Assembly: GCA_018433835.1 (NCBI GenBank)
Contig: JAHDQM010000028.1
Span: 1 to 64,000 of the forward strand
Length of the DNA stretch: 64,000 bases
DNA from: Methanoculleus sp.
Lineage (GTDB): Archaea; Halobacteriota; Methanomicrobia; Methanomicrobiales; Methanoculleaceae
Direction: 5' to 3'
Part shown: piece by piece, positions 1-64,000 of the stretch
Position numbering within the stretch: the first letter of the stretch is position 1
How the letters are laid out: each line of letters begins with the position of its first letter
The notes under the pieces: generated by a model
Told to the model about the DNA's origin: nothing
The model's input: the letters and a program-made list of their open reading frames with translations, nothing else
The model's database searches: none
Program-made: the position numbers and the translations under genes

Positions 1-66
1 AGGGGGGTCTCCCCCCTCCCCTGTCCCCACCCCCCGTGGCGATATTCAATGGGAATCCGTGTCCGG
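1..66 (-). repeat. Modular hairpin repeat R1 (partial, cut by window edge)
   Basis: The window opens inside a copy of the dispersed repeat, in inverted orientation relative to R6 and R7. A G6-TCT-C6 palindrome followed by TCCCC at 2-21 is the central pivot. GTGGCGATATTC and then GGAATCCGTGTCCGG form the conserved outer end, matching the reverse complement of the R6 outer end. The rest of the element lies outside the window. No gene is seen between here and the end of the glucanotransferase gene at 205. Confidence 0.75.
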
Positions 67-204
67 TGGTGATTGCGGAGGGGATCATCTGTCAGGCATC
101 ATCCATTCTCCATCTGGTTTTTTATGGATGCGAGTCACTACTCAGCAGAATTCGGCGAAAGATTCCGAAGCACACTTGGCACAGTCGTGGATCACCCCGC
201 CGCT

Positions 205-1704
205 TCATCCCCGTCCCGAAAGTTCCGTCATCCCGCGGAGCCACTCGAACGGCGCACCGGCGAACTCCTCCGGCGTCATCCGCCACTCCCAGTTCCCTGT
301 GGTGGTCGAGGGGTAGTTCATCCTTGATGCGGCGCCGAGGCCGAGAAGGTCCTGCATGGGGACGATGCATGCCCGGGCAACCGATCTCATCGCGAGAAGG
401 ATGAGTTCCCGGTGAATCTCGTCAGCCGCCACCTCCCGCCCGGCGTAGGCAAAGAACCGCTGCCTGTCCTCCTCCGACGCCTCTTCCTCAAACCACCCCC
501 TCGCCGTGTTGTTGTCGTGCGTCCCCGTGTAGCAGATGAGGTTTGGGACGTAGTTGTGGGGGATATGGGCGCTTCTCGCGATTTCCTCGCCGAACGCGAA
601 GAGCAGGATCTTCATCCCCGGGAACCCGAACCGGTCGAGAAGTTCCTGGACGGCCGGGGTGTTCGCCCCCAGGTCCTCGGCGACGATGGCGAAGCAGGGG
701 AACCGCCGGGCGAGCGCCTCGAAAAACTCCGCTCCCGGCCCGTCGATCCAGGTGCCGTGCTCGGCCGTCGTATCGCCCGCGGGGACCTCGTAGTAGTCGG
801 CGAACGCCCGGAAGTGGTCGATCCGGAAGAGGTCGTAGAGTTCGCCGGACCGGGCGATCCTGCTCATCCACCAGTCGTATCCCCGTTCCCGGAGTGTGGG
901 CCAGTCGTAGACCGGGTTCCCCCAGAGCTGCCCGGTTTTGCTGAACATATCGGGAGGCACCCCCGCCACTACGGTGGGGCGGCGGTCTTCGTCCAGTTTG
1001 AAGATCCCGGGGTTCGCCCAGACGTCGACGCTGTCGTATGCGACGTAGATCGGAATATCGCCGATGACCAGAATGCCCCGGTCGGTGCAGTAGCGGCGGA
1101 GGGCCGACCACTGCCGGGCGGCAAGGTACTGGAGGAACTTCTCCTTCCGGACCTTATCGGCGAGGAGCCGGCGCATCTCGTCGAGAGCCTCCGGCTGCCG
1201 GGCCCGGACCTCCTCCGGCCACCGGCTCCACGCCTGCCCGCGGAAATGGTCTTTGAGCGCGACGAAGAGCGCGTGGTCGTCGAGCCACCACCCGCTCGTG
1301 TCGCAGAACGTTTCATACCCGCGCTCCGGTCCAGAGTAGCGGAACCGCTCGTAAGCAAGCGAGAACACCCTTTCCCGGTACCAGGCGGCCGCCTCGTACG
1401 CCACCCGCTCCTCCGGAAAATCGGGCGCCGGCTCCAGGTCGCTCTTCCTCAGGAACCCCTCCCGGACGAGCATCTCCGGGCTGATAAGGAGGGTGTTTGC
1501 GGCAAACGCCGACGGGCTGCTGTAGGGTGAGTGGGCGTACTCGATCCGTGTCGGGTTGAGCGGCAGGATCTGCCAGTAGTGCTGCCGGGCTCGCTCAAGC
1601 GCCTCGACGAACCGGTATGCCGACGGGCCGAAGTCGCCGATGCCGTACGCCGACGGCAGGGACGTGATGTGCAGGAGTATGCCGCTGCCCCGTGTCTGAA
1701 TCAT
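205..1704 (-). CDS. malQ: 4-alpha-glucanotransferase (amylomaltase)
   Basis: Transfers alpha-1,4-glucan segments between maltooligosaccharides or glycogen-type glucans in the cytoplasm (GH77). The 499-residue product has the family length and begins with the typical SGILLHITSLPS segment. The GH77 catalytic blocks are present: RIDHFRAF with the nucleophile Asp near residue 295, VAEDLG with the acid/base Glu near 341, and GTHDNN near 396. The ATG at 1704 is preceded by GGGGAG; the frame stays open about 60 codons further upstream, but that part is low-complexity Arg/Ser and overlaps the proline dehydrogenase gene. It is the last gene of a three-gene minus-strand operon. A role in turnover of storage glycogen is inference. 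Confidence 0.93.
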   Translation of the reverse strand: MIQTRGSGILLHITSLPSAYGIGDFGPSAYRFVEALERARQHYWQILPLNPTRIEYAHSPYSSPSAFAANTLLISPEMLVREGFLRKSDLEPAPDFPEERVAYEAAAWYRERVFSLAYERFRYSGPERGYETFCDTSGWWLDDHALFVALKDHFRGQAWSRWPEEVRARQPEALDEMRRLLADKVRKEKFLQYLAARQWSALRRYCTDRGILVIGDIPIYVAYDSVDVWANPGIFKLDEDRRPTVVAGVPPDMFSKTGQLWGNPVYDWPTLRERGYDWWMSRIARSGELYDLFRIDHFRAFADYYEVPAGDTTAEHGTWIDGPGAEFFEALARRFPCFAIVAEDLGANTPAVQELLDRFGFPGMKILLFAFGEEIARSAHIPHNYVPNLICYTGTHDNNTARGWFEEEASEEDRQRFFAYAGREVAADEIHRELILLAMRSVARACIVPMQDLLGLGAASRMNYPSTTTGNWEWRMTPEEFAGAPFEWLRGMTELSGRG

Positions 1705-1735
1705 GTATAATCTCCCCGGATGCGAGGGTGCGGCG

Positions 1736-2554
1736 CTACGGCACCGGCGTCTTCCCCGCCGCCGCCAGCCCCGCGAGATACGCCTCGCGCCGGGCGACGT
1801 ATATCCTTGCCTGATCGCCGAAGGGCACGTACTCCGCGACGGTCCGTCCCTCCCCCGCGAGCCGGAGTTTCGTCTCGTCCGCAAGCCCCATCAGGAACCC
1901 GAACTCGACCGCCCCGCCCGCGTCCCGCACCAGCCACGCGACGAGATCCGGGTCATGGGTGCCGGCCGAGAACGGCACGCCCCGGTCGAGAAGTCCTGCT
2001 GCAAGTGTGCGAAAGCGCTCCCGGGCCTCGCCGGGGTCGTCCGTATCCGCCCCGTATGCCCCCTTCACCAGGCGGGGCCGGATCCCGTGGCGGACGATGC
2101 GTTCGAGGTCGCCCGCAGTGCGGTCGAGGGAGGTCTGGAGGGCGAGCGTCACCGGCAGCCCCTGCCGGGCGGCGCAGGCGACGGCGGCATCGACCGTCGT
2201 TTTCACGAGTCCCCGCCCCTCCATATCCACCTCAACACCGATGCCGCGTGCATGCGCCCCGCTACAGAGCCGGAGCAGCGAGTCCCGGGCGGCATCCCGG
2301 TCGATGAGCTCACCGAGCGCAGTCATCTTCACGGTGATGGATGCGTCCAGGCCCTGCTCGTCGATCACGGCTACGGCGGCAAAAGAGCGCTCAAGGTTCT
2401 CCCGGACCTGCCGCTCGCTCCGGGCATACTCGCCGAGAGCGGCGAGAATACACCGGATGCCCTGGGCGTTCTGCGCCCGGCACCGCCGGACCGCCGCATC
2501 GAGGTCGGGCAGCGTCCAGCGCTCAACCCTGCCGGAGGTCGAGGGTGCTATCAT
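1736..2554 (-). CDS. Proline dehydrogenase family protein
   Basis: Predicted FAD-dependent enzyme oxidising proline to pyrroline-5-carboxylate. The 272-residue protein fits the monofunctional TIM-barrel ProDH family: VEVDMEG near residue 110, PRLVKGAYGAD near 160, and C-terminal EYVPFGDQARIYVARR near 240 corresponding to the flavin/substrate-binding YVPFG...Y..RR block. No pyrroline-5-carboxylate dehydrogenase domain or neighbour is seen. It starts 3 nt after the TIGR04255 gene ends and stops about 31 nt before malQ, so the three are probably co-transcribed. Proline catabolism is not a usual methanogen trait, so the physiological substrate is uncertain. Confidence 0.8.
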   Translation of the reverse strand: MIAPSTSGRVERWTLPDLDAAVRRCRAQNAQGIRCILAALGEYARSERQVRENLERSFAAVAVIDEQGLDASITVKMTALGELIDRDAARDSLLRLCSGAHARGIGVEVDMEGRGLVKTTVDAAVACAARQGLPVTLALQTSLDRTAGDLERIVRHGIRPRLVKGAYGADTDDPGEARERFRTLAAGLLDRGVPFSAGTHDPDLVAWLVRDAGGAVEFGFLMGLADETKLRLAGEGRTVAEYVPFGDQARIYVARREAYLAGLAAAGKTPVP

Positions 2555-2557
2555 TCC

Positions 2558-3319
2558 TCACCGTGCCTCCTCCTCCTCCCGGATGGCGAAGAGGTCGCGC
2601 AGGGAGTCCCTGATGCAGGCCTCGAAGATGTCCCGCACGTGGGTGTGGGCGATCTCCAGCCAGTCGGCCACCCCATCCACCGGGATGCTCTTCTCTTCTG
2701 CCAGGAAGTAGTCGATGTTTAAGAGGAACGCATTGTGTTCCGTCGACTCGGGCACGGCGTCGGTGAGCTCCACCCGGCAGTTGTCGCGGTTGTCGTGGAA
2801 CGAGAACTCGCACCCGGTGATGAACCCCGCCGGCGCCCGCGGGAGTTCCGGCGGGAGGACGGGGTAGAAGGCGAAGTAGTCCGAGAGTGTCACCTCGCTT
2901 TCCGGGATCTCGATGAGATTGACGTAGCGGAGGTTCATGGTGCCGATGGCGTCGGCGCTGATGACCTCCCGGAACCGTTCGAACGCCCCGTTGATCCGCT
3001 CCGAAAAGGCCTCCCAGTGGACGTACGGCTTCTGGCAGCTCACCGAGAGCAGCCGGGGGCCGACCTGGACCGCACAGCCCTCGTCCTCGGCCAGAAAGAT
3101 CGACCGTTCGGCGACCAGGAGTTCCTCGCGGAGCCCCTCCGGCCCGAGGAGCATGACCACCTCGCGCACGTAGCGCTGGTCTCTCTTCGGGTAGGCGTCC
3201 TTCAGGTGACTGTAGAGTATGCCGGGGTAGGTCATGTCCCAGGCGGTTTCCTCGGGAAACCGGAACTCGCATATCACTTCGGCTGCGGGGGGGTTGACAT
3301 ACTTTCGTATCTCTGCCAT
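2558..3319 (-). CDS. TIGR04255 family protein
   Basis: A 253-residue soluble protein with the N-terminal PPAAEVICEFRF signature and overall length of the sporadically distributed TIGR04255 family, whose function is unknown. The chosen ATG (MAEIRKY) has GGGAG 7 nt upstream; the frame extends five codons to a TTG that lacks such a site. It is the first gene of the operon with proline dehydrogenase and malQ. No catalytic motif is recognisable. The family has a patchy distribution consistent with transfer, but base composition here matches the neighbours. Confidence 0.75.
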   Translation of the reverse strand: MAEIRKYVNPPAAEVICEFRFPEETAWDMTYPGILYSHLKDAYPKRDQRYVREVVMLLGPEGLREELLVAERSIFLAEDEGCAVQVGPRLLSVSCQKPYVHWEAFSERINGAFERFREVISADAIGTMNLRYVNLIEIPESEVTLSDYFAFYPVLPPELPRAPAGFITGCEFSFHDNRDNCRVELTDAVPESTEHNAFLLNIDYFLAEEKSIPVDGVADWLEIAHTHVRDIFEACIRDSLRDLFAIREEEEAR

Positions 3320-3353
3320 CTTCTTCTCCCTCAAGGGGTGTAGGATGGAAGGA

Positions 3354-3368
3354 GACTACATTAAGGTG
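3354..3368 (-). promoter_or_regulatory. Putative promoter box for the TIGR04255 operon
   Basis: On the minus strand the sequence CACCTTAATGTAGTC lies 34 nt before the TIGR04255 ATG. The identical 15-mer occurs at 15219-15233 at similar spacing before another operon, which supports a TATA-type promoter giving a very short leader. Confidence 0.5.
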
Positions 3369-3435
3369 ACTGCTCGGCGGCGAGCGGCCGGCACCCGCAC
3401 GATGCTTTATCTGCCGGGGCTGCTATTTGGGTGCG

Positions 3436-3720
3436 ATGGGCGAGACGTTCCGCCGGACGGTCCACCTGCTCATGGGGGTCCTCGGCGCCGTGATCATTCT
3501 CCGCCTGGACGATAGTGGGGCATTCGTCTTCGTGAGCGCCGCACTCGTCGCCCTGTTCCTCCTCTGCGACGCCTTCACCCGCGGTTACGACGTCCCGGTC
3601 CTCTCCCGGGTGCTGGACGAGTCGGAGCGCACTGAGGAGGTGCCGCTCATGGGAGGCATCGCCTACGCCGCCGGGGCACTCTTCTGCCGAGGGCGCCGTG
3701 CGCGAACCGGGCTGAGATGA
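3436..3720 (+). pseudogene. Truncated diacylglycerol/polyprenol kinase-like membrane protein
   Basis: About 85 residues resemble the N-terminus of archaeal SEC59/CTP-dependent polyprenol kinase-type membrane proteins: RRTVHLLMG, hydrophobic segments, then VLSRVLDESER and GGIAYAAGALF. After GALFC the sequence switches to an Arg-rich tail (RGRRARTGLR) and stops, where the full-length family would continue with further membrane helices and the CTP-binding region. The switch coincides with the beginning of repeat R2, so the gene seems to have lost its 3' part at the repeat junction. The ATG at 3436 is used; a TTG lies three codons upstream. The family assignment is tentative because only the N-terminus remains. 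Confidence 0.55.
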
Positions 3721-3966
3721 GCAGGGTTGTTTGACTACGGTCAGCAGAATAAGCAGGGATGCTGAAAAGTCCCGTACACTGTACCGTGGTCGAGCTCCGT
3801 TCTTTCGCATTTTCGGTGCTCACGCTTCTGCTCGAAGCCTAGCGGCTTCTCAAGCTCCGGACATTGTCCGTCGCACCCTCCGGCCGGTCGCATTTCGCCC
3901 ATCGCACTCCCCATCAGCCCCACCCCACGGGCGATACCAGGGTAAAGCCGTGTTCACGTTCTGACC
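3697..3966 (-). repeat. Modular hairpin repeat R2
   Basis: Inverted-orientation copy. Its end nearest the truncated kinase (GTGCGCGAACCG, then GGTTGTTTGACTACGG) parallels the same part of R3. CCCGTACACTGTACCGTGG around 3770-3788 is the conserved terminal palindrome. A hairpin GAAGCC-TAGC-GGCTTC at 3834-3849 reads with a GCTA loop on the minus strand. CCACGGGCGATACCAGGGTAAAGCCGTG at 3927-3954 is the outer GGTATCGCC/ACGGCTTTAC end (written here as two adjoining blocks of the consensus). No gene is supported in this interval beyond the tail of the truncated kinase. Confidence 0.7.
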
Positions 3967-4073
3967 CGGTTTATGGCCCAGATGGCAGAACTTTTGTACA
4001 TGAGTGTTCCGATCACGGTACATCTAAAGTTTACAGGCCGTTTTGGGGTGTTCTCAGCAGATCTTGATGGCCG

Positions 4074-4784
4074 TCAGCAGAACGGATTGGGGTGGCGGAT
4101 TTTTACCCCCTCCGGCAAAGAAATAATGAACTCGTTGTCGGAAATTCCTGAATTGATCGTGAAATTTTTCACTTCAAAACTTGTTTTCATGTTTCCTGCT
4201 GCGTCAAAGGCCTGGATTCTGGTTACTATCCAGGCTTCCCGGTCAATCCATATCCGGACGTTTCCGTCCCTGCCTTCACCGAAGTAATCGATATGTCCCG
4301 TATTTGTAGCCTTGATAATGTAGGCTTCGCGTCCGTTCACGGTTCCTGTACCCTGATATGATAGATCAAAATCTCCCGAGAACAGCACCGGGGAGGCGAG
4401 TCGATTAGGGTCCGCAATCAAGGGAAAACAGGTTTCCGGGTCCTGGATTGCGAGAATGTCGGCGGTCTGCGATTCCGGGTGATACTCGGTAAAAGTCAGG
4501 TTATGAACCGACTGACTCCAGATCCTGTCGTCAGGATCATACCGGTGCCTGAGCAGATACTGGTAAGGCCGTTTGTAGATAATCTCAATATGGTGCAAGC
4601 CCCCGGGAAGCGTCTGAACAACGGACATTGAGTAATCATCAATCGAGTCGGTTTGAGCTCTGTATTCCTCAACAATCTCGGCGACCGTGTTGGGGGTGCC
4701 CGTACAGCCGGCAGATGCCATGATGCTGACGAGAAGTATGAACAACAGAGTCACGGAAAAAAGTAAGAGTGAATCGTATTTCAT
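4074..4784 (-). CDS. Predicted lipoprotein, LolA/outer-membrane-lipoprotein-sorting-like fold
   Basis: A 236-residue protein with an N-terminal hydrophobic segment ending in a lipobox-like ASAGC near residue 25, so probably exported and lipid-anchored outside the membrane. The mature part has the alternating beta-strand pattern of LolA/RseB-like domains (IVEEYRAQTDSIDDYSM, YKRPYQYLLRHRYDP, GREAYIIKATN, IWIDREAWIVTRIQAFD), seen in many archaeal surface proteins of unknown function. The ATG overlaps the TGA of the upstream gene (ATGA), so the two are translationally coupled. Both genes are visibly less GC-rich than the flanking region and are bracketed by repeats R2 and R3. Confidence 0.65.
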   Translation of the reverse strand: MKYDSLLLFSVTLLFILLVSIMASAGCTGTPNTVAEIVEEYRAQTDSIDDYSMSVVQTLPGGLHHIEIIYKRPYQYLLRHRYDPDDRIWSQSVHNLTFTEYHPESQTADILAIQDPETCFPLIADPNRLASPVLFSGDFDLSYQGTGTVNGREAYIIKATNTGHIDYFGEGRDGNVRIWIDREAWIVTRIQAFDAAGNMKTSFEVKNFTINSGISDNEFIISLPEGVKIRHPNPFC

Positions 4785-6082
4785 TCGGGAATATCCACCA
4801 TCGGGAATGCATTCCATGCCCCGTTGTCCCAGTTATAACCAATCCAGACATAAGGAGGCCAATTAATGCCATCGGGCGATCTGAAATCAAACGACCCGGT
4901 GGTATCAAACACTTCGTCCGGGCGTTTCCAGTCCTCATTGATCCTGCACCAGTCGTTCCGCACCTGAGTGCGTGCGTACAACGTGATCGCCCCCAGCGGG
5001 ATTGTACCAAGCTCTGAGGAGCCCTCGCTGGTTACCAGTTCCGTGGCGGGATTGACAGTATCATTGTAGTCATAATAATACCACAGGTCGTCCCTGACAT
5101 CCTTCAGCCAGATCTGGTACAGCCCGAGATTCTGACCGGTATTCACAAGGACATACCACTCATAACTCTCCGGGAGCACAGTCACAGTAGCGGGTATGTA
5201 CGTTCCAGTCCCTCCAAGATGTTCATCGCTGCCGAGACTCTCCCACGGGTAGACAGGATTTGCATCCTCACCGTTATATACTACAGGGAAAATCTTGATT
5301 GGGGACCCCGCGAAATCACTGCTGTCGTATTCAGCAATGATTTCAATGGTCACGCCATCATTGTAATAGTTTTCCAGTTCTTGGAATGCCTGGTACCTCT
5401 GCCCGGAATAGGTGTATGTCAGCGGAGTAATCGAACCTGTCATATAGGTAATGTCGGGCTCCGTTGCGGCAAATGAAACCCTCCATGCGCATGTTTGTGG
5501 TGTGCACCGAATTACCGGATCTGCCAACAACTGCAAGTACAGGGGTATATCGTCTTCGACATCATCCAAAAGCTGTTGTACCTGGGTTTCTGCTCCTGAT
5601 GTTATGTCCGCTGATGGGAATTCAAACTGCCGGGTGGGAAAAGACAACTTCACCACATCAGGGTCGGGGTTCAGGGCTGCATACATCGATTTCGGAATCC
5701 TGAGAGTAACTGTTTTTTCATCCGCTTTCTGCTGCCTGCTCTTATAGTGCCCGTCTCCATTCATCACGAATTCTGAGTTAAATTCCTCTTTTGAGATGGA
5801 AATATCAATAAGTTCTGGATCGGTACTGGAATTTTTTTCATTAAGCCATGATTCGGGAATGTCAATGATATACATTTCCGATTCGGGCAGCGGTTTTGCA
5901 GGCGGGAGATCTTCCGGGATCTCCAGCGGGAAATCAGCATGGCGCGCATGTGAATTTTTGACAATGTTTGATTCGTCAGGGGTGATTGTCTGAGTGCCCG
6001 CACTGACGGGGACAAACACAACGCTCACAAGCAGTAGTGCCATGAGCAGAGAAAAACCCCTGATCCTGAATTTTAGTTTCAT
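4781..6082 (-). CDS. Secreted protein of unknown function
   Basis: I do not recognise this 433-residue protein. It has a clear signal peptide (positively charged MKLKFRIRG, hydrophobic core, VPVSAG cleavage region) and a soluble, aromatic- and Asn-rich extracellular part with no further membrane helix. The chosen ATG at 6082 has GGAGG 8 nt upstream; the frame extends 15 codons further without such a site. It shares an ATGA overlap with the lipoprotein gene, suggesting that the two products work together at the cell surface. Its base composition is lower in GC than the genes outside R2-R3, consistent with recent acquisition. Two cysteines (RCTPQTC) could form a disulfide. Confidence 0.7.
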   Translation of the reverse strand: MKLKFRIRGFSLLMALLLVSVVFVPVSAGTQTITPDESNIVKNSHARHADFPLEIPEDLPPAKPLPESEMYIIDIPESWLNEKNSSTDPELIDISISKEEFNSEFVMNGDGHYKSRQQKADEKTVTLRIPKSMYAALNPDPDVVKLSFPTRQFEFPSADITSGAETQVQQLLDDVEDDIPLYLQLLADPVIRCTPQTCAWRVSFAATEPDITYMTGSITPLTYTYSGQRYQAFQELENYYNDGVTIEIIAEYDSSDFAGSPIKIFPVVYNGEDANPVYPWESLGSDEHLGGTGTYIPATVTVLPESYEWYVLVNTGQNLGLYQIWLKDVRDDLWYYYDYNDTVNPATELVTSEGSSELGTIPLGAITLYARTQVRNDWCRINEDWKRPDEVFDTTGSFDFRSPDGINWPPYVWIGYNWDNGAWNAFPMVDIPE

Positions 6083-6250
6083 CTCTGTTTCCTCCGTTTC
6101 TTTCCATTTCACGGAGGCATGATCCAAACCTTCATCATTTCAGAGGTGGATAGTATTATGCCTACGGGTAGGTGCGGGTTCAACGAAGTTTCGTCGCTTG
6201 GTGAACCCGTCCTTCTACTTCTCTTGGGACAACCCAGAGTCCCCCACGTG

Positions 6251-6556
6251 GGTGAATTTAATCTGCATCTATTTATGCTTGTCGACGCCTGTACTCTCAT
6301 CCGGTGCAGTTTCCATGCCTTCGAATACTTCGGCGGGGCTACATCGAGGAGATCCTGTATGAAAACGCAAAACGGTGATCCTCAAGCGGGTACTCCGTGC
6401 TGGCGACCATCAATGAAACCCGAAGGTCGAGAACTCCATTGGGTATCTGAAACGGAATTATCTCCTCCCCTGGTGGTCGTTGCAGGCGTCGCCGGCGTTA
6501 TCGAGGCCATCTCCCCGGTCGACGACAACGTGGCGGTTCAGGTGGGGGGGTTCTGA
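6251..6556 (+). pseudogene. IS21-family transposase (istA) relic
   Basis: Fragments of an IstA-type transposase can be read on the plus strand in changing frames. GEFNLHLFMLVDAC...IRCSFHAFEYFGG spans 6251-6337. A shift is followed by GYIEEILYENAK, another shift by KTVILKRVLRAG, then NPKVENSIGYLKRNYLLP, which matches the family's VENSVGYLKRNFLLP-type block. At least three frameshifts and an in-frame stop separate the pieces, so it is dead. No istB and no convincing terminal repeats remain. It lies directly upstream of repeat R3, whose edge starts about 20 nt later, and next to the low-GC secreted pair. Confidence 0.72.
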
Positions 6557-6573
6557 GGAGTGAGTCTTTAATG

Positions 6574-6830
6574 CACGGGGTTGTGCGGGAACCGAGCCCG
6601 AGAAGAGCGAGGTTGTTCGACTGCGGCTGACAGAATTAGCTGGGGCGATGAGAAAGCCTGGTACAGTGGACCGTGGGGACTGCGCACCTTCGGTGCTCGA
6701 ACTCCGCCTGCACCTCCGGTGCACGCGTCGTTTATCGCCATAGGGGGGGTGGGGACAAAGGGGAGTGCGAGCGTAGCGAGCATGAGCACCGATAGGTGCG
6801 ACCAAAAGAAAGGAGCATGAGCCTTTCAGA
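6574..6830 (-). repeat. Modular hairpin repeat R3
   Basis: Inverted-orientation copy. GTGCGGGAACCGAGCC followed by GGTTGTTCGACTGCGG parallels R2. GGTACAGTGGACCGTGGGG around 6660-6678 is the conserved terminus. Two hairpins with GCACC/GGTGC stems at 6684-6696 and 6710-6722 have GAA and GGA loops on the minus strand; a third at 6786-6799 has a GATA loop on the plus strand. TATCGCCATAGGGGGGGTGG then ACAAAGGGGAGTGCGAGCG is shared almost exactly with R8. The G-tract palindrome seen in R5-R7 is not preserved. No gene is seen in this interval. Confidence 0.72.
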
Positions 6831-6884
6831 ATTATCTTACCTGACCGTGCTTGATCCCTCCGGGAAACCCGGCCCTCTCCCCCT

Positions 6885-7253: not shown

Positions 7254-7298
7254 GTATAAAATTCGACGGGCCCCCTCATAAATCCGGGGTCGGCATTG

Positions 7299-8252: not shown

Positions 8253-8375
8253 TCTCAGAATATTGGGGTGCGAGGGGGATAAAGCGGGGGGATGGGGAGT
8301 CTAAAAATTGGTATGGATGGATTGGTTAGGGCAGCGACCGCTTGTTGCCGTTTTGGTTGGGCACAATGTAAAGGG

Positions 8376-8545
8376 GGTTCCACAGTGCATGAGTTCTGGT
8401 GTGTTTACACCCCCTGACACGGCTTCCTACCGGGTATCGCCATGTGGGGGAGGGACCGGGGAGGTGCGACCGGAGGGAGCTTGAGAAACTCGAAGAGTTT
8501 CGAGCGGGTGTCCCCTTCCCGGCAGAGGCTTTTTGGGATGACCTC
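8376..8545 (+). repeat. Modular hairpin repeat R4
   Basis: Plus-orientation copy. ACACGGCTTCCTACCGGGTATCGCCATGTG around 8414-8443 (outer ACGG-TTCC block then GGTATCGCC) matches the R6/R7 outer end. It is followed by GGAGGTGCGACCGG and a 7-bp hairpin GAAACTC-GAA-GAGTTTC at 8485-8501 in the recurring GGAGCTTGA...GAG frame. The terminus with ACTGTACCGGGC is not well preserved. From 8546 to 8818 I see no gene. Confidence 0.6.
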
Positions 8546-8818
8546 ACCCGCACCTTAAGCAGGCATACCCCGCCGGATCACCCTCCGATAGCGAGTAAAC
8601 CACCGGTCAATCGTCGTTGCCGGTAGGGAGTTTCCCTCTCCACGTCCCCCGGGCAGCCCCGTCCCGCACCGATCTCTTAAGAAATGACAACGATGGGCAC
8701 GATACGGTCGCGAAGACTCCGGGTGCTGTCGCCTCCCTGGGAAAAAGGCAAGAATGACGAGAATAAAACTGGTGTTTGACCCATAAAACTCATAGACGCA
8801 GGTCACAATAACCCATGC

Positions 8819-20278: not shown

Positions 20279-20510
20279 AACCCGTAAACGGTTTTCCACC
20301 GGATATCGCGATTGGGGGAACGACGCTCCGCAGGAGCGGAGTTCGAGCACCGAAGGTGCGAGGTGGGGTTCAGGGGAGGGGGGAGCATCCCCCCTCCCCT
20401 GTCCCCTCCTCCCTGATGGCGATATTCCCACGGTCCAGTGCACGGGCATTTTTGGAAACTCAACCGTTTCCGTAGTCCCCCACGGTTCAGTGTACCGGGC
20501 TTTGCCATCG
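20279..20510 (+). repeat. Modular hairpin repeat R5
   Basis: Plus-orientation copy lying between two minus-strand genes. ACGGTTTTCCACCGGATATCGC near 20288-20309 is the outer end (two consensus blocks). Hairpins CGCTCC-GCA-GGAGCG (20324-20338) and GCACC-GAA-GGTGC (20347-20359) follow. The central palindrome has an 11-bp stem GGGGAGGGGGG/CCCCCCTCCCC around an AGCAT loop (20373-20399). GATGGCGATATTCCC and then ACGGTCCAGTGCACGGGC form the far end. That terminus is duplicated: after a GGAAAC/GTTTCC hairpin, CCCACGGTTCAGTGTACCGG recurs near 20484-20503. Confidence 0.8.
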
Positions 20511-49635: not shown

Positions 49636-49636
49636 T

Positions 49637-52049: not shown

Positions 52050-52051
52050 CC

Positions 52052-55037: not shown

Positions 55038-55048
55038 GAGAGATTTTC

Positions 55049-55663: not shown

Positions 55664-55680
55664 CCAGCCTCCGGGATATC

Positions 55681-57320: not shown

Positions 57321-57373
57321 ACGGAGAGGCGGGGGTTTGAGACAGGCGGCGGAGACCGATCAGTCACACATTC

Positions 57374-57575
57374 CGGGCACGGATTTCCAGTGGATATCGC
57401 CACGCACTGCCCCCGCCCCCCCAAGGGGGCGCGGGGGAGGAGCGCGAAGCGCGGGTGGGGTGGGGGTTACAGGCGCCTACAATGAGGTAGAGACAGGGGA
57501 GGGGGGGTGCCCCCCCTCCCCGTCAGCCCCTCCCCCAATGGCGATACCCCCACGGTCCACTGTACCGGGCTTTTA
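57374..57575 (+). repeat. Modular hairpin repeat R6
   Basis: Well-preserved plus-orientation copy in the gap after the propeller gene. GGGCACGGATTTCC and then GGATATCGCCACGC (57392-57405) form the outer end. A C/G hairpin, then GCGC-GAA-GCGC at 57442-57452 follow. GGTAGAGACA leads to the central palindrome with arms GGGGAGGGGGG and CCCCCCTCCCC (57496-57521). TGGCGATACCCCC and ACGGTCCACTGTACCGGGC close the element near 57572. Compared with R7, scaffold blocks are nearly identical but the hairpins differ. The surrounding 57321-57683 contains no gene. Confidence 0.85.
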
Positions 57576-57683
57576 CCCCGCTCTAAAGTTTCGTCGATCT
57601 TGTCAAAAGAGGATAAGTAGCGACCACAAAAACCTCGTGCCGGCCCCGAAGTCCCTAAAAACGGAATTACTTGGCCCCTCACT

Positions 57684-59456
57684 TTACGACTTCGAGATAT
57701 CCGCGTAGTAGTATTCCCCGGCCGCGACCTGTTCCCGGTCCAGGAACGAGCCCGGTTTGTTGATCCGCGGCCTCCCGCTCTTGTCCCGCCGGAAGGTGAT
57801 CCTGAGCGCCTCGAGGAATCGGTTCATGCCCGGCGCCATATCGAACGGACCGGCGGCCTTGCCGTGCAAACCCGGCTCGCCCTCGAAGACCAGGATCCGG
57901 TCGCTGATCATGTCGATCACGTAGATGTCGTGGTCGATCACGAGCGTGCTCGCGTCCCGCCCTTCGGCGTGCTTGCGGATCATCCGGGAGATCTTCACAC
58001 GCTGCTCCACGTCGAGGTGCGCGCTCGGTTCGTCCAGGATGTAGAGGTCGGCATCGCGCGAGAGGCAGATCGCGATCGCCACGCGCTGGAGTTCGCCGCC
58101 GGAGAGCGTGTTCACCGGCGCCTGGAGGAACTGCGAGAGCGAGAGGGGCTCCAGGATTTCGTGCTGGTAGTATGAAGTATCGAACTTCGTCGTCGTCTGC
58201 CGGAGAATCTCCTCGACGGTCGCCTCCGAGTCGCCTTTGAGGTACTGCGGCTTGTAGGAGATCCGCACCCGGGTATCCATCGCCCCGGTGTCGGGTTCGA
58301 GCACCCCGGCGAGGAGTTGGGCGAACGTACTCTTCCCGATACCGTTCGCCCCGAGGACCCCGAGAACCTCACCGCTCCGGATCTCCCCGCCGTCGACGGT
58401 GAGCGAAAATTGCGTAAAGCGTTTCGTCATCGCCGGGAACTCGAGCAGCACCTCCCGGTTCACGTCGGCAGCGTGGGCCCTGGTATCGAACGTCACCGCA
58501 TACGTCCTGAACCTGACGTTCTCCTCCGGGAGGAAGCCCTCCAGGTACTGGTTGATTCCCACCCGGACGCCCTTCGGGTGGGTGATGACACCGAAGACCG
58601 CCGGTTCTCCGTAGGCGATATGTACGGTATCGGCAAGCATATCGAGGATAGCGAGGTCGTGCTCGACGATCACGACCGGCCGCTCCAGGGCGAGTTCCCG
58701 GATAAGGTTCGCGGCGGCCATCCGCTGGTAGACGTCGAGGTAGGGCGTGATCTCGTCGAGGAAGTAGAAGTCGGCGTCACGCGAAAGACAGGCGGTGATC
58801 GCCACCCGCTGCAGCTCGCCGCCGGAGAGGGTCGCGATCGGCCGGTCGACGACCGCCTCAAGCGATAGCCGATCGATGTAGTAGTCGAGTTTGCCGCGCT
58901 CGTCGGTGGTCGCAAGGAGGTCGTGCACCGACCCAACAAAGACCTTCGGGATCTGGTCGATGTACTGCGGCTTCACGGCGACCTTCACGTTCTTCTGCGA
59001 GAGCAACTGGAGGTAGTCGAAGAGCTCGGTCCCCTGGTAGAGGTCGAGAACCTCCTTCCAGGAGACCCCGGCGTCGGTCCTCCCCAGGTTCGGGACGAGC
59101 GTGCCCGAGAGGATCTTCACCGACGTGCTCTTGCCGATACCGTTTGGCCCGAGGATACCCGTGACCTTCCCCTCGACGGGGATCGGGAGGCCGTAGAGGA
59201 CGAAGCCGTTCTGGCCGTAGCGGTGGGTCGGCTGGTCGAGCTGTTCGGGGAGGTTGACGATATCGAGGGCCTCGAACGGGCACTTCTTCACGCAGATGCC
59301 GCAGCCCACGCAGAGCTCCTCGGATATGACGACCTTCTGGTCCTCGCCGATGACGACGGTTTCATCGCCGGTCCGGACGCGCGGGCAGTAGAGGATGCAC
59401 TCGGTGCCGCACTTGACGGGGTGACACCGATCACGGTGTACGACAGCAATACGCAT
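57684..59456 (-). CDS. Ribosome recycling ATPase RLI / ABCE1
   Basis: Splits ribosomes into subunits after termination or rescue, together with aRF1 or Pelota. The 590-residue protein has the N-terminal iron-sulfur domain (CHPVKCGTECILYCPR and CVGCGICVKKCPFEALDIVNLP) and two ABC modules: GPNGIGKST near 105 with LSGGELQRVAITACLSRDADFYFLDEITPYLD near 212, and GANGIGKST near 375 with LSGGELQRVAIAICLSRDADLYILDEPSAHLD near 457. It starts 6 nt after the EMC6-like gene ends, forming a two-gene operon bracketed by repeats R6 and R7. Confidence 0.97.
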   Translation of the reverse strand: MRIAVVHRDRCHPVKCGTECILYCPRVRTGDETVVIGEDQKVVISEELCVGCGICVKKCPFEALDIVNLPEQLDQPTHRYGQNGFVLYGLPIPVEGKVTGILGPNGIGKSTSVKILSGTLVPNLGRTDAGVSWKEVLDLYQGTELFDYLQLLSQKNVKVAVKPQYIDQIPKVFVGSVHDLLATTDERGKLDYYIDRLSLEAVVDRPIATLSGGELQRVAITACLSRDADFYFLDEITPYLDVYQRMAAANLIRELALERPVVIVEHDLAILDMLADTVHIAYGEPAVFGVITHPKGVRVGINQYLEGFLPEENVRFRTYAVTFDTRAHAADVNREVLLEFPAMTKRFTQFSLTVDGGEIRSGEVLGVLGANGIGKSTFAQLLAGVLEPDTGAMDTRVRISYKPQYLKGDSEATVEEILRQTTTKFDTSYYQHEILEPLSLSQFLQAPVNTLSGGELQRVAIAICLSRDADLYILDEPSAHLDVEQRVKISRMIRKHAEGRDASTLVIDHDIYVIDMISDRILVFEGEPGLHGKAAGPFDMAPGMNRFLEALRITFRRDKSGRPRINKPGSFLDREQVAAGEYYYADISKS

Positions 59457-59462
59457 GGGAGA

Positions 59463-59825
59463 TCACAGGACGGTAGTGGTCAGGAGGATCGTCCAGGTCA
59501 TGAACCAGAGTGCGAACGTCATGAAACTCTGGTAGAACCAGTCCTTGCTGGTCAGTTCCATGTAGTCGACCCCAAGGAGCATGAAGATGTGTTTCTGGAA
59601 GACGACGCCAGCCATCAGGAGGAGGATGCCGATGATGGCGTTTTGCTGGAGCCCGCTCACCGGGTCGGGGGTGCCGGAGAGATAGAACGAGAGTCCTCCG
59701 GTGAGGATGCCCATGAAACAGGCTACAAGCGTCCGCTTCATCCGATTTCTGTGCTCGACCTGTTTCTCGGCACGTGTCCGCGGCCGTGTCTTTTCAACCT
59801 CTGCTGCTACAGCATTATCGCTCAT
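59463..59825 (-). CDS. EMC6-like small membrane protein
   Basis: A 120-residue protein with a charged N-terminal region (EVEKTRPRTRAEKQVEHRNRMKR) and three hydrophobic helices. It resembles archaeal EMC6/Rab5-interacting-type proteins, whose eukaryotic relative is a core subunit of the ER membrane complex for membrane-protein insertion. Adjacency to the RLI gene suggests a link to translation or nascent membrane proteins, but this is inference. ATG at 59825; no strong ribosome site. Confidence 0.68.
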   Translation of the reverse strand: MSDNAVAAEVEKTRPRTRAEKQVEHRNRMKRTLVACFMGILTGGLSFYLSGTPDPVSGLQQNAIIGILLLMAGVVFQKHIFMLLGVDYMELTSKDWFYQSFMTFALWFMTWTILLTTTVL

Positions 59826-60171
59826 CGTGACACCAGTGTTACGCCATTCCTGAAAGGGTAGTTTCTTCGGGACGGCGGCCCGGCGGAGAAAACAGGCTCC
59901 CGGCCACTCCCAGGATTGACGGAATTACTACATTATAGGGTGTTCTCCGGTTATAAAGGTAGGTACCCTCAACCCGGCGGAACCGGAGGTCCGGCAGAGC
60001 GGGGTGATCCGTGATTGTTCTTCACGTGGGGGATGTATCAGGAGAGGTGAGGGCGTGCAGAGGAGGATTTTTCGGCTGCTAGGAGTCCCGGTCTGGGTCA
60101 CGCTCAAATCTCGCGCCTTATCTGCCCCATTTCAAAGATCGAGGAATTTTTATGCTCCTGCTGTCGCGCAT
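59826..60171. other. Promoter region of the EMC6-like/RLI operon and spacer
   Basis: About 345 nt with no supported gene. On the minus strand CACCCTATAATGTAGT (59927-59942) resembles the boxes at 3354 and 15219 but is about 100 nt from the start codon; CCTTTATAACC (59950-59960) is a second TATA candidate. Confidence 0.4.
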
Positions 60172-60370
60172 CCCCGGATACGGATTCCGAGGGGATATCG
60201 CCACGCACTACCCCCGCCCCTAGGGGCGGGGGAGGAGGCCGGAGGCCGGGCGGGGTGGGGGTTGCAGGTATAGCCTTACAGGGTAGAGACAGGGGAGGGG
60301 GGATGCTCCCCCTCCCCGTCAGCCCCTCCCCCGCGTGGCGATATCCCCACGGTCCACTGTACGGGGCTTT
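60172..60370 (+). repeat. Modular hairpin repeat R7
   Basis: Best-preserved copy. GGGGATATCGCCACGC (60191-60206) and its exact reverse complement GCGTGGCGATATCCCC (60333-60348) form 16-bp inverted ends. Inside are a 22-bp perfect palindrome CCCCCGCCCC-TA-... at 60211-60232, a GGCC-GGA-GGCC mini-hairpin at 60237-60247 and the central palindrome GGGGAGGGGG...CCCCCTCCCC at 60292-60317. TACGGATTCC precedes the element and ACGGTCCACTGTACGGGGC follows it. It lies upstream of the EMC6-like/RLI operon in the same orientation as R6. No gene is seen until Pelota ends at 60448. Confidence 0.88.
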
Positions 60371-60447
60371 GTCCTTGATTGAGACCGTTCTGTCACGTAA
60401 ATCGCACTAACGGGGCTCAAACTCCCGGAACGAAAATTCCCCAGGCG

Positions 60448-61473
60448 TCACTCGATCCTGTACCGCAAAAGCGCCGCAGCGCCGCCGATGGCCGCGAGGC
60501 GTTCTCCCGGCTCGAACTCGGTGCTCATCACCACGACCGTTGCGTTGACCTGTTCGGCCTGTTCGATGACGCCCGTAGCCTCTTCTTCCCGGAGCAGGGT
60601 GTCGGAGACCAGCACCGTCTCCGCCGCGCCGTAGGCGATTGCTTTGCGGACTTCGTCGATGCCGTAGGCGACGGCACCTTCGGTAGCGATCCGGTGCAGG
60701 ACTTCGTCCATCAGCCTGACCTCCCGCGCAAGGTGGAGGTCGCCGAGCAGCCGCTCGAGGATTCCCTGCCCGATGACCTCCTGCACGGCGCCCCGTCCGA
60801 TACGCTGTGTCTCGACGGCGACCATCCGTTCCGCGAGGTCAGATGCACGGGCTTTCACGTACTCCGCGAACTCGTCTTTCACGAACCCCGGGCCTGCGAC
60901 GACCAGGGGTCCGGTGACCGCGGCGAGTGTTTCAAGCGTCCTCTCGAAGAGCACCGACCGGGTGCCGGCGTCGGCACCCTTGCTGCTCCCGACCGCAACA
61001 GTGGTCACCCACTCCGGGCCGAACTGGCGCAGGCGGTAGACCTGCGCCTCCCCTTCCTCGACGCTCACTATATGAACCACGCCGTATGCGGAGGCGTCGA
61101 CGGCCCGCCGTATCCGTTCGCAGTCGACGGACCGCCAGCGTTTGACGACCGAGATCTCGAACCCCGCTTCGACGTTCAGGGTGTGATGCGCGGTGACGTC
61201 CACCCCGCTCTCGATGACGCCGGCGATGCGGAGGCGGTTCGTGTGCTGGTGGAACTCTACCTTCTCGACCCGGATCCCGAGCCGGACCGGTCGCTTCTCT
61301 GTCTTTTCCGGCCGGAGTTTATCGGTTGCCGCCTCCACGCTCCGGAAGGTCGTCGCAAAGACGAGATCTCCCGCCACGACCAGGTGGGAGAGGTGCCAGA
61401 GATCGTCGAGCGTCTCCGGGAAGAGACGTATCTCGCCGAACTGTTTCTTCATCTCCCGGACTTCAGCCTTCAT
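60448..61473 (-). CDS. Ribosome rescue factor Pelota (aPelota)
   Basis: tRNA-shaped eRF1 relative that enters stalled ribosomes and, with RLI, splits them. The 341-residue protein has the N-terminal SH3-like domain (KKQFGEIRLFPETLDDLWHLSHLVVAGDLVFATTFR), then a central domain (VHIVSVEEGEAQVYRL) and the C-terminal L30e-like domain (VAYGIDEVRKAIAYGAAETVLVSDTLL near 270). It lacks the GGQ motif of release factors, as expected. The ATG overlaps the TGA of the RqcH gene (ATGA). The open frame upstream of this ATG lies inside that gene and is ignored. Confidence 0.94.
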   Translation of the reverse strand: MKAEVREMKKQFGEIRLFPETLDDLWHLSHLVVAGDLVFATTFRSVEAATDKLRPEKTEKRPVRLGIRVEKVEFHQHTNRLRIAGVIESGVDVTAHHTLNVEAGFEISVVKRWRSVDCERIRRAVDASAYGVVHIVSVEEGEAQVYRLRQFGPEWVTTVAVGSSKGADAGTRSVLFERTLETLAAVTGPLVVAGPGFVKDEFAEYVKARASDLAERMVAVETQRIGRGAVQEVIGQGILERLLGDLHLAREVRLMDEVLHRIATEGAVAYGIDEVRKAIAYGAAETVLVSDTLLREEEATGVIEQAEQVNATVVVMSTEFEPGERLAAIGGAAALLRYRIE

Positions 61474-63368
61474 GATCCCACGATATCGGAGCCCCCCGGC
61501 GGGACGAATGCGGCGACCGCCTCGGTGTTCAGGGCGTTCTTGAGCCCTTTCCACTCGTCCTCCGAGAGTTTCTCCCTGAGTGCCCGGACAACCTTCTTCG
61601 CGGTGTCGTTCTGCTCGAACTGCCCGGGACGGAGTTCCACCCATACCTTCGTACGCCCGGTGACGGCCCCGGGGGGACCGCCGATGACGGCGACCTCGGG
61701 CGCCGTCGCAAGACCGATCGCCACCCCGAGCGGGACGTTCCTGAAATACTGCCGCTCGCCCCGGACGATGAAGGCGCCTCTCGCCACGTATTCGCCGGAC
61801 TCGGCCGTCTTGCTCACCTGGTCGGGACGGGCGGCGTAGACGTCCGCCGTGAAGTGCCCGGCCTTCCAGGCGTTGGAGTAGGATGCGGCGAACTGCACGG
61901 CCTCGTCCAGGTGTTCGGTCGTGCCCTTCACGATGACGACGCTCCCGCCGTGGACGTCGGCGTGGACGAAGAGGTCCCCGCCCTCCATGTACTTCTTGAC
62001 GAGCTCCTCGTTCTGCGACGCGTCCCGGCCGCCGATGACGAGGGTCCCGTCGGTGGTGGCGAACCAGCGGAACCGGTGATACCACCGTTTCTTTAGGAAG
62101 GCAAGGCTCTGTTTCCGCCGGGGCTTCTCGGGGATCATCCGCTCCATGGCCGCGAGTGCGCCTGTCTTCTTCTTCTTGAACTTCTTGATCTGGTCGTAGT
62201 AGCGACCGATGTTCTGCTCGATCGTCTCGTGGACGTAGACCTTCACCCGCTCGCCCGCGAGATCGAGCTCCACCGCCGCCTCGGCAGGGTGGACCGCACG
62301 GACCATCTTTGCCGCCGGATTCTCGCTGTTCGATTTGAGGATCTGCTCGATCTCCTGCCAGGATCGGGTCTTGCTCGCTTCATCGAGCGTCGTTATGATC
62401 CCGGCAACAGGCGTGTAGTTCTCGTAGAGCACCTCCACGATCCGCTCGTATCGCTCGATCTTCTTCTCAAATCCCTTGATAGCCTCCGTCTGGCGCCGGC
62501 GGATCACCTCCGCCTGGGAGAGGCGGGGTTTCCCGGCCGCAGCCTCTTCCTTCCCGCCCGCCACCTTCGGGTAGAACGCATCCAGGCCCTCACTGAAAGT
62601 CGCAAACCGCGCGCGAACCTCCTCGCCGGCAAACACCACCGGCCAGCACCCGGACGGCGTTATGACCGGCTCCCGGCGCCCCTCGACACCGGCCATCAAC
62701 CGTTCGAACGCTTCCCGGATCGCTTCTGCGTCCACCTCCGCGGCGGCGGCGCTCTTCTCGACGCCCGCCGTCCGGCAGACTTCCTCGGCATACGCGCCGC
62801 CGAGCATGCACCCGACGGCGAGCGTCCGGACGATGTCGCGGTCGGACTGTGCAAGCGTTGTCCGGAACTCAACAGGAGGAAGCGCCGAGCAGTCGGACCC
62901 CTCGAAGGCGTAGACCGCGCCCGGGACCACCTCCCGTGTCTTGAACCGGTGGTGCCAGAGGGGCTTGATGATCGTATACCCTTCGTCGCAGAGGACCGCG
63001 TTCCCTTCGTCGAAGAGTTCGAAGATGAGGTGATAGGTCGTGTCCCGCTTCCCGATATCGATGCTCACGGTGCGCTCGAGCCCGAGCTGGCGGATGCCGA
63101 GCACCTTCCCGCCCTCGAGGTGCTTTCGAAGCAGCATCGCAAAACTCGGCGGGTTCTTCGGGGGGGTGGGGAACTCCGCGGTGAAGTGGGCGCGCCGTCC
63201 CGTCTCGACGAGGAACAGGTATTTTGCCCGGTCTTCACCGTTCAGCCTGATACCGAGGGTCTTCGCGTCGAACTGGTAGATCTTGCCGACCCAGAGCGGG
63301 AGGCGATCGGCAGCCTCCGCTACCAGCGCCCGAAGATCAACCCCGCTCATTCCCTGTAGTGTCGCCAT
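61470..63368 (-). CDS. Ribosome quality control protein RqcH / NEMF (Rqc2 homologue)
   Basis: Binds large subunits blocked with peptidyl-tRNA and recruits tRNA-Ala for tailing in bacteria and archaea. The 632-residue protein has an N-terminal NFACT-N domain (SGVDLRALVAEAADRLPLWVGKIYQ), central helix-hairpin and coiled-coil regions (about 310-430) and the NFACT-R domain (WYHRFRWFATTDGTLVIGGRDASQNEELVKKYM near 450). It contains GGDLFVHADVHGGSVVIVKG, the DUF814 core. ATG at 63368 is chosen; one at 63350 (MSGVDLRAL) also fits. It overlaps pelota by ATGA. Confidence 0.93.
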   Translation of the reverse strand: MATLQGMSGVDLRALVAEAADRLPLWVGKIYQFDAKTLGIRLNGEDRAKYLFLVETGRRAHFTAEFPTPPKNPPSFAMLLRKHLEGGKVLGIRQLGLERTVSIDIGKRDTTYHLIFELFDEGNAVLCDEGYTIIKPLWHHRFKTREVVPGAVYAFEGSDCSALPPVEFRTTLAQSDRDIVRTLAVGCMLGGAYAEEVCRTAGVEKSAAAAEVDAEAIREAFERLMAGVEGRREPVITPSGCWPVVFAGEEVRARFATFSEGLDAFYPKVAGGKEEAAAGKPRLSQAEVIRRRQTEAIKGFEKKIERYERIVEVLYENYTPVAGIITTLDEASKTRSWQEIEQILKSNSENPAAKMVRAVHPAEAAVELDLAGERVKVYVHETIEQNIGRYYDQIKKFKKKKTGALAAMERMIPEKPRRKQSLAFLKKRWYHRFRWFATTDGTLVIGGRDASQNEELVKKYMEGGDLFVHADVHGGSVVIVKGTTEHLDEAVQFAASYSNAWKAGHFTADVYAARPDQVSKTAESGEYVARGAFIVRGERQYFRNVPLGVAIGLATAPEVAVIGGPPGAVTGRTKVWVELRPGQFEQNDTAKKVVRALREKLSEDEWKGLKNALNTEAVAAFVPPGGSDIVGS

Positions 63369-63473
63369 TGGTTCCAGAATACATTCGGCCCGGTACCTAA
63401 AGAAGGGCACTGCCAGCGGTGGACCACCGGTTTTGGTGCGCGACGGTTCGTTAGAAACGACTGTCCGCAGGAT

Positions 63474-63580
63474 GCGATGGCCCGCAGGCCGGAGCTTGAG
63501 ATACCCACAGGGTTTCAGACGGGAGTTCGAGCACCGTCAGGTGCGAGAACCGGAGCGTGAGCACCGGAGGTGCGAAAGAT
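63474..63580 (+). repeat. Modular hairpin repeat R8a (fragment)
   Basis: Two mini-hairpins in the repeat family's frame: GGAGTTCGA followed by GCACC-GTCA-GGTGC at 63531-63544, and GGAGCGTGA followed by GCACC-GGA-GGTGC at 63561-63573. GGAGCTTGAG near 63491 is the same lead-in as in R4. The inverted ends and the central palindrome are missing, so this is a partial copy or hairpin array. From 63581 to 63825 I see no gene. Confidence 0.65.
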
Positions 63581-63825
63581 TGGGCGGGGGGGCTGTGCCG
63601 GAGATGGGGGTCCGGGGTTGTCGCACTCGATAGCCTGCAGACAGCCCTCCGGAATTCTCAAGACGCTTCAACTGCATCCTTCATAACCAGTTGCTCATGT
63701 TCACACTGCTTGCACTCCGAAGACCAACGGGGCGTTTGGTTGTGACCGGTGGGAGTGAACGTAGTGCTAGGTGTTCAAACACCGAAAGCGCGAATTGCAC
63801 AAGACGGTGCATTGAAGGCGTGGGA

Positions 63826-64000
63826 AAAACCCGGTACAGTGGACCGTGGGAGTATCGCCCTTAGGGGGGTGGGGACAAAGGGGAGTGCGAGCGTAAGCGG
63901 AGCATGAGAAACTCGAAGAGTTTCGAGGGGGGATGCTCCCCCCTCCCCACCTAGCGGTGGTCGAGCTCCGGTTCTACGAACCGTCGCACTCCCCGTCAGC
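63826..64000 (-). repeat. Modular hairpin repeat R8b (cut by window edge)
   Basis: Inverted-orientation copy. CCGGTACAGTGGACCGTGGG (63831-63850) is the conserved terminus, then TATCGCCCTTAGGGGGGTGG and ACAAAGGGGAGTGCGAGCG as in R3. GAAACTC-GAA-GAGTTTC at 63908-63924, the central GGGGGG-ATGCT-CCCCCC palindrome near 63927-63944, and CGGTTC-TAC-GAACCG at 63969-63983 (GTA loop on the minus strand) follow. The element continues past the window. Confidence 0.8.

Follow-up and report, generated by a model that had tools for sequence, protein, structure and literature searches.

The described elements closest in kind to the archaeal unit reported here are the mobile GC clusters (GC42) and the hairpin elements of mitochondria; double-hairpin elements are reportedly also present in the mitochondria of the fungus Allomyces. 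The GC42 clusters of yeast mitochondrial DNA are presented, in the accessible portion of the account, as intergenic hairpins of about 42 bp that vary in copy number between strains, are associated with a 2-nt target duplication (AG), merge and shuffle as units, and have no dedicated enzyme known (PMC4478555). For Methanoculleus marisnigri a 45-nt satellite family, Fam_48_45_4, is listed as a tandem repeat only, as far as the available part of that source goes (PMC6749651). The stretch analyzed here (the window) comprises the first 64,000 nt of contig JAHDQM010000028.1 of Methanoculleus sp. (assembly GCA_018433835.1). An earlier description of short intergenic hairpins in the window (the original prediction) was correct as to the hairpins themselves but did not recognize that most of them are halves of a double-hairpin unit, and it mentions neither the outer pairing of that unit nor the signs of its movement. 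Somewhat more probably than otherwise, the units are copies of a mobile DNA element of very small size, whose core measures about 41 nt and whose whole length is about 45 nt. In the literature searched, which reached few subscription journals, this element is not described for any archaeon.

Side-by-side reading of the copies gave a hairpin A, the linker GAGNNYGA and a hairpin B; written in full, the layout is NNC-GA-[A]-GA-GNN followed by YGA-[B]-GAR. Units were counted when a linker and two stems were present with at most one mismatch per stem. The survey covered 1.49 Mb, consisting of a sample of the source genome (2.94 Mb, 63 contigs), orthologous loci, and loci fetched by hairpin pattern. 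The source genome sample amounts to 461.4 kb (the window plus 20 stretches of 397.4 kb in total), and the fetched set holds at least 103 loci; the fetching pattern fixes one B hairpin. A total of 207 units was obtained (18 from the source genome sample, 36 from orthologous loci, 153 from fetched loci), 190 of which are distinct. The distinct perfect stems number 20 for the 6-bp A hairpin and 16 for B. The A loops are of the GNA/GNNA class in 146 of 190 units (GNA in 120 of 156 triloops, GNNA in 26 of 34 tetraloops), and so are 98 of the B loops in the 120 units whose loop was left free by the search, the set on which the B-loop counts of this survey rest (GNA 59/67, GNNA 39/49, and four loops of five nucleotides). 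The third base of the GNNA loops is a pyrimidine in 57 of 65 cases (GNYA), unlike the RNA-type GNRA loop. A G-G mismatch is located at the same A-stem position in CTGGCC/GGGCAG (21/190) and CGGGCC/GGGCCG (18/190), the only mismatch in each, as if it were kept.

DNA folding of 13 units paired the lead NNC with the linker GNN, with a GA/GA internal loop between this outer helix and the inner stem. At these positions, on which the unit search had made no selection, 122 of 186 units have a lead NN that is reverse-complementary to the linker NN; shuffled linkers gave 48 on average and at most 68, and a shift by one base gave 0 and 22. The pairs among these 122 are AA/TT (59), TG/CA (33), AG/CT (16), CG/CG (13) and one other; the commonest exceptions are TG/CT (28) and TG/TT (10). 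Given this outer pairing, hairpin A is to be understood as NNC-GA-[stem-loop-stem]-GA-GNN, in which the inner stem may shrink to 2 bp. Units with a 2-bp inner stem have a GNA/GNNA A loop in 56 of 71 cases, and no such unit was present in the reversed control.

The features of the window are as follows, units and hairpins first and host repeats last.

20319..20362, plus strand: complete double unit AACGA-[CGCTCC GCA GGAGCG]-GAGTTCGA-[GCACC GAA GGTGC]-GAG (unit search, DNA and RNA folds).
6766..6802, plus strand: double unit with 2-bp inner A stem, TGCGA-[GC GTA GC]-GAGCATGA-[GCACC GATA GGTGC]-GAC (DNA fold z -1.6, outer TGC/GCA predicted).
8465..8504, plus strand: double unit with 2-bp inner A stem, TGCGA-[CC GGA GG]-GAGCTTGA-[GAAACTC GAA GAGTTTC]-GAG (DNA fold z -1.9, B register shifted).
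63887..63927, plus strand: unit with degenerate A (GC GTAA GC) and B = GAAACTC GAA GAGTTTC.
63944..63988, minus strand: double unit TGCGA-[CGGTTC GTA GAACCG]-GAGCTCGA-[CCACC GCTA GGTGG]-GGA (unit search, DNA fold).
3831..3875, minus strand: double unit TGCGA-[CGGAC AAT GTCCG]-GAGCTTGA-[GAAGCC GCTA GGCTTC]-GAG with an exceptional A loop (unit search, DNA fold).
63491..63576, plus strand: chain of B-type hairpins, namely an imperfect GATACCC ACA GGGTTTC, GCACC GTCA GGTGC and GCACC GGA GGTGC.
6681..6723, minus strand: TGCACC GGA GGTGCA, then GAGTTCGA-[GCACC GAA GGTGC].
57442..57452, plus strand: host-repeat hairpin GCGC GAA GCGC, no double unit.
60237..60247, plus strand: host-repeat hairpin GGCC GGA GGCC, no double unit.
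57379..57573, strand not assigned: host repeat (scaffold) resembling a miniature inverted-repeat transposable element (MITE), ends judged by eye.
60180..60370, strand not assigned: MITE-like host repeat (scaffold), ends judged by eye.
20288..20451, strand not assigned: MITE-like host repeat (scaffold) bearing the unit at 20319-20362; similar unit-free scaffolds exist.

All 13 hairpins listed in the original prediction are present where it placed them, with stems and loops as described and every loop closed by C-G, and the blocks shared between copies are genuine repeats (window repeat sets D2, D4, D6, D8-D10 and I1-I6). The GNA/GNNA loop class is true of those 13; it does not extend to the window at large, which also contains an AAT loop (CGGAC-AAT-GTCCG, minus strand, within 3831-3875) and an ACA loop (the one-mismatch hairpin GATACCC-ACA-GGGTTTC near 63500), nor to 44 of the 190 A loops of the family. 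The hairpins at 57442 and 60237, formerly counted as family members, exist but belong to a separate host repeat with GCGC and GGCC stems. The small hairpin of that repeat has a GCGC or GGCC stem in 54 of 82 rows; other stems, many by chance, occur in the remaining 28. The three scaffolds share inverted ends (ATCGCC/GGCGAT) and a G/C-tract palindrome. At the NFACT locus of other species the scaffold itself is present in one case (L052) and absent in another (L056).

The hairpins are genuine and occur far more often than chance would give. In the source genome sample the lead-in GGAGNNYGA is followed immediately by a perfect stem of at least 5 bp 34 times (437 lead-ins), versus 2 times in the reversed sequence (209 lead-ins), and 28 of these 34 hairpins have GNA/GNNA loops. 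A looser lead-in pattern gave 714 matches in the whole source genome versus 144 for the pattern read backward. Perfect hairpins with stems of at least 6 bp and no lead-in have GNA/TNC triloops in 35 of 74 intergenic versus 28 of 195 coding cases in the source genome, in 85/123 versus 5/46 at orthologous loci, and in 169/278 versus 44/319 at hairpin-fetched loci, a set that the fetching favours. For GNNA tetraloops without lead-in the corresponding intergenic and coding counts are weak (8/68 vs 15/181, 13/96 vs 4/56 and 42/193 vs 41/376). This corrects the original prediction: in the absence of the lead-in, GNNA loops are scarcely enriched. The flanks of 390 distinct GNA hairpins read GGAG-YNYGA upstream and GAR downstream of the stem, with GA on both sides in 231; family-wide, C is located on the 5' side of the GNA loop in 298 of the 390.

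The stems are replaced in matched pairs, with pairing and loop class preserved. When linker and B were held fixed, 107 of 226 contexts had a hairpin A, with at most one mismatch, that ended exactly at the linker (shuffled mean 6.8, maximum 14), and 81 of these 107 have GNA/GNNA loops. In the same contexts an A ending one base earlier was counted 126 times, and 2-7 bases earlier 4-16 times; the one-base shift scores above the unshifted position because a shortened, inner portion of a 6-bp stem is counted too. The B arms, where free and of equal length, to which this count is confined, are perfectly paired in 84 of 93 cases, 61 of 66 in the genus of the window, a set of GAA-beginning B hairpins with 8 different arms, and 23 of 27 in a second genus that belongs to another family. 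The loops of the GAA-beginning B hairpins, left free, are GNA/GNNA in 82 of 104. The proposed exchange of stems with retention of pairing and loop class is thus borne out by the unit survey, the free-arm pairing and the outer-pair counts. Neither a general spread to other loops nor stem decay lacking compensation was found, yet exceptions are not rare: 22 of 120 B loops, the four loops of five nucleotides included, in addition to the 44 of 190 A loops noted above.

The genus-level comparison covered 35 members and the order-level comparison 232 genomes. The GCACC form of B with a GNA loop was found in 27 of 35 genus members at 0-49 copies, and a slightly relaxed GCACC form in 28 of the 232 order-level genomes, 27 of them in the same genus. 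The GAA form of B is present in 38 of 232 genomes (26 of the 35 genus members, 8 of 12 genomes of the second genus, and 4 others), with a backward control of zero everywhere. In 30 loci fetched from the second genus, hairpin A pairs at the linker in 27 of 29 cases, always with an inner stem of 2 bp; a 2-bp match alone would be expected in about 1 of 8. The loops of 23 of these 27 A hairpins are GNA/GNNA, and the lead NN is complementary to the linker NN in 20 of 27 (shuffled mean 12, maximum 17). The full list from three genomes of the second genus contains perfectly paired arms in 51 of 60 cases. These arms fall into 9 kinds, and 2 kinds, with one match each, are shared with the first genus. 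The second genus has the identical layout with a mostly different stem set. A stricter statement, that the two genera have no stem in common, was dropped, as GAAACC and GAAACCC each occur once in the second genus and also in the first. In the complete genome G007 the GAA-type hairpins are unevenly distributed between the strands (23 forward, 50 reverse) and the GCACC type evenly (28 and 26); arrays may cause the unevenness.

Movement was assessed by comparison with empty sites, i.e. the joined flanks of a unit found elsewhere. Under the strict criterion (20 nt per side, at most 2 mismatches each), 67 of the 184 units whose flanks were usable have an empty site; when the boundaries were displaced by -60, -40, -20, 20, 40 and 60 nt, apparent empty sites numbered 5, 10, 14, 18, 15 and 12 of 176-186. 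A loose criterion gave 123 of 190 units, and a listing of clean sites in which 3+3 mismatches were permitted gave 99 of 190. The net insert in these 99 equals A, linker and B plus 9 nt in 63 cases and plus 8 nt in 26 (89 together), which amounts to 44-45 bp for the commonest core. The trinucleotide before the insert is GGG (34), GAG (18), AAG (18), GAA (7), AGG (5), ATA (5) or another. A junction repeat of at least 2 nt was counted in 57 of the 99 and of one nucleotide in 16, as raw counts with no composition-matched control. In several cases the insert interrupts the loop of another unit, after C-GNA-G, and at the empty site that hairpin is intact. Upstream of an NFACT gene, genomes G007 and G008 share 94-98% identity, and a single unit of 48-49 bp at a G-run distinguishes them; in G013 an array stands there beside 236 identical bases. 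These observations suggest that the units are mobile, with the loops of other units among their targets.

Tandem arrays are frequent, mostly with a period of 45-46 bp; the array table has 37 rows, some overlapping and a few unrelated (e.g. two from locus L045). Fam_48_45_4 probably corresponds to these arrays, matched by genus and period alone. A reading as peptide repeats, prompted by 45 being a multiple of three, was rejected on account of arrays of 37, 41, 46 and 47. At L092, L099 and other loci, CTCACGCGAAG/CCGCGAAGG runs form a further intergenic repeat of CGCGAAG-like words that is also a target of units. Spread by a virus was likewise rejected; the sole viral contig (L218) has its matches inside GC-rich coding-like repeats and these were taken as chance.

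The main rival is recombination among host repeats, according to which the units would be passive parts of the MITE-like scaffolds and satellites, changed by gene conversion, unequal crossing-over and slippage and incapable of independent movement. Most units do belong to scaffolds or arrays, the empty sites are for the most part equivalent positions in other copies of the scaffold, and the slid boundaries still yield their 5-18 apparent sites per approximately 180 owing to arrays and repeats. Units are found, however, at several scaffold positions and within other units' loops, with exact joins. Upstream of a methyltransferase gene the scaffold is empty in G007 and G029, two units are present in G012, and G026 has a nested one; in G006 and G010 a G-run that belongs to no scaffold carries units, which are lacking there in G000, G012 and G017, and the flanks at this site are only partly alignable. 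Such recombination could explain part of the polymorphism; as the whole explanation it is unlikely.

A second alternative is a repetitive extragenic palindrome (REP)-like element moved by an IS200/IS605-type transposase (Y1, including the REP-associated tyrosine transposases, RAYT), the partner suggested in the original prediction. The short, 5'-tagged intergenic hairpins and the orientation-specific joining behind a short motif resemble such a system. The tag differs from GTAG, however, and the Y1 profile PF01797 had no match in the source genome at E values up to 10, nor in the ten others of the 11 genus members with at least 24 copies, in a search confined to the genus of the window. Matches were obtained in 7 of the 35 members, whose GCACC copies number 0, 7, 0, 0, 1, 17 and 0; the match in the 17-copy member is below the cut-off. 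This alternative is quite improbable, and the suggested Y1 partner was given up. G033, a genus member free of GCACC units, has 19 PF01797 matches, many of them fragments. The Y2 profile PF04986 gave no signal in the genomes, and the control genomes were silent as well.

An RNA-level signal, i.e. processing, stability or termination hairpins in transcripts, was considered with gene calls from a simple codon-usage script, by which some genes were missed (e.g. near 4.0-6.1 kb). The units fold well as RNA, tandem GA pairs are an RNA motif too, and units are frequent between convergent genes (50, versus 4 between divergent genes, the two backgrounds being comparable in length at 53.5 and 54.9 kb). 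Moreover, of 11 units inside predicted open reading frames (ORFs), 10 share the orientation of the ORF. Between co-directional genes, in contrast, 34 units have the same orientation and 34 the opposite, a balance that speaks against an RNA signal; 57 units were unassignable. The GNNA loops are mostly GNYA and not GNRA, and a search of Rfam at the gathering score found only a tRNA-Gly within the window and no RNA family for the units. A function in RNA is accordingly regarded as very improbable. Spread via reverse transcription of a small structured RNA has been proposed for mitochondrial hairpin elements in the parts of two accounts available (PMC4478555, PMC2800124), and the source genome and G026 carry a reverse transcriptase. 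PF00078 is nevertheless present in just 3 of 35 members (G000, G023 and G026, the source genome included) and not in the high-copy genomes G007, G008 and G012; a reverse transcriptase as partner was rejected, and this route is hardly credible.

For the mobile double-hairpin element, the following course of events is proposed. Hairpin A would consist of an inner stem of 2-7 bp with a GNA/GNNA loop and an outer 3-bp helix separated by the GA/GA internal loop, and hairpin B of YGA-[stem]-loop-[stem]-GAR. The element would sit in one orientation at purine-rich targets, namely runs of G within intergenic repeats and the C-GNA-G loops in copies of the element itself, and its insertion would add A, linker and B plus 8-9 nt, often with a junction repeat of at least 2 nt. 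The shape (pairing, GA flanks, loop class) would be preserved, with stem letters free to change in matching pairs. The folded strand may be read and moved as single-stranded DNA, cut beside purine runs or GNA loops, and joined to the target by a non-Y1 enzyme or a repair process; mismatched arms may be corrected one from the other. A more specific form of this proposal places the identity of the element in its single-stranded DNA shape and not in its sequence: the two GNA/GNNA mini-hairpins, the GA/GA flanks and the outer helix would be recognized by a non-Y1 methanogen enzyme whose cuts would fall in or next to GNA loops and purine runs and which would insert the folded strand of about 41-50 nt. 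Nesting, stems free to change in matched pairs, and a shape common to two genera with mostly different stems would follow. The single-stranded reading is compatible with the GNYA preference and the strand balance; the specific form is tentative and has less than even standing, and its odds were lowered when the outer pairing was found.

Several results weigh against the mobile element or its single-stranded form. Junctions without any repeated nucleotide make up 26 of the 99, and 12 of the 57 longer junction repeats are array copies (at least 10 nt). Most empty sites lie within repeats (scaffolds, other units), so that gene conversion could shift a unit without transposition. In the strict 6+3+6 register the pairing is weaker, with 55.5% Watson-Crick cells versus 42.5% in shuffled sets (maximum 46.1%) and a perfect A in only 20 of 140 contexts. 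The energy models do not discriminate between DNA and RNA for the units (z -3.52 and -3.55, respectively, for 20319-20362), and both place hairpin A of 20319-20362 in a different register, with loop AGGA. Of the window units, the pair whose inner stem is 2 bp long folds scarcely better than shuffles. The idea that 2-bp A stems are stable only as DNA was dropped after folding and then the outer-pair counts; such stems are not decisive for DNA folding because the outer helix extends them. No partner enzyme and no autonomous parent element were found, the enzyme search having covered Y1, reverse transcriptase and, with silent controls, Y2.

If the proposed element is real, it would be a mobile DNA unit of unusually small size and a case in which nature uses the C-GNA-G mini-hairpin class throughout a genome. 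The compensated, sequence-free stems would indicate selection or copying that acts on shape. The spread of hairpin repeats without a known transposase, such as mitochondrial GC clusters and bacterial CGTC palindromes, could then be tested in archaea that can be cultured, and a new nuclease or transposase specific for hairpin loops could be discovered.

The d(GCGAAGC) hairpin is stable, and the C-GNA-G mini-hairpin is known mainly as a chemical and test-tube motif and is not known as a component of genomic elements. The units share its loop and closing pair, and exact GC-GNA-GC cores occur in them. Mini-hairpin DNA is also used to stabilize aptamers, according to the accessible part of PMC4686876. 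In comparison with MITEs, the unit shows no terminal inverted repeat by inspection, and it is the host scaffolds that have inverted ends. Like the REPs, bacterial interspersed mosaic elements (BIMEs) and REP doublets forming hairpins (REPINs) associated with RAYT, as described in the available parts of PMC3733652 and PMC6006769, the unit is a short tagged intergenic hairpin with many copies, arrays and mosaics. Unlike them, it is abundant in genomes without Y1, has the 5' flank NNCGA (A) or YGA (B) instead of GTAG/GTGG, forms its double unit in direct orientation, and nests in its own loops. The CGTC repeats of bacteria, which have no known transposase in the portion of PMC3733652 accessible, are a closer parallel than REP. 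The description of Fam_48_45_4, in the part of PMC6749651 available, is one without hairpins, dispersed units or insertion. The hairpin elements of sponge mitochondria likewise occur as single or double hairpins, dispersed and in tandem, with suspected mobility; in the available part of their account they keep the stems and vary the loops, the reverse of the methanogen unit (PMC2800124). With GC clusters and double-hairpin elements the unit shares the size class of about 40-80 bp, the one or two hairpins, and presence or absence at otherwise identical sites. It differs from GC42, as far as the accessible description goes, in that changes fall mainly in the loops of GC42, whereas the methanogen unit keeps its loops and changes its stems; nesting in GNA loops and GA/GA flanks are features of the methanogen unit absent from that description. 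The unit resides in archaeal chromosomes and the GC clusters in yeast organelle DNA, so that it is similar to them in kind and not a member of that family.

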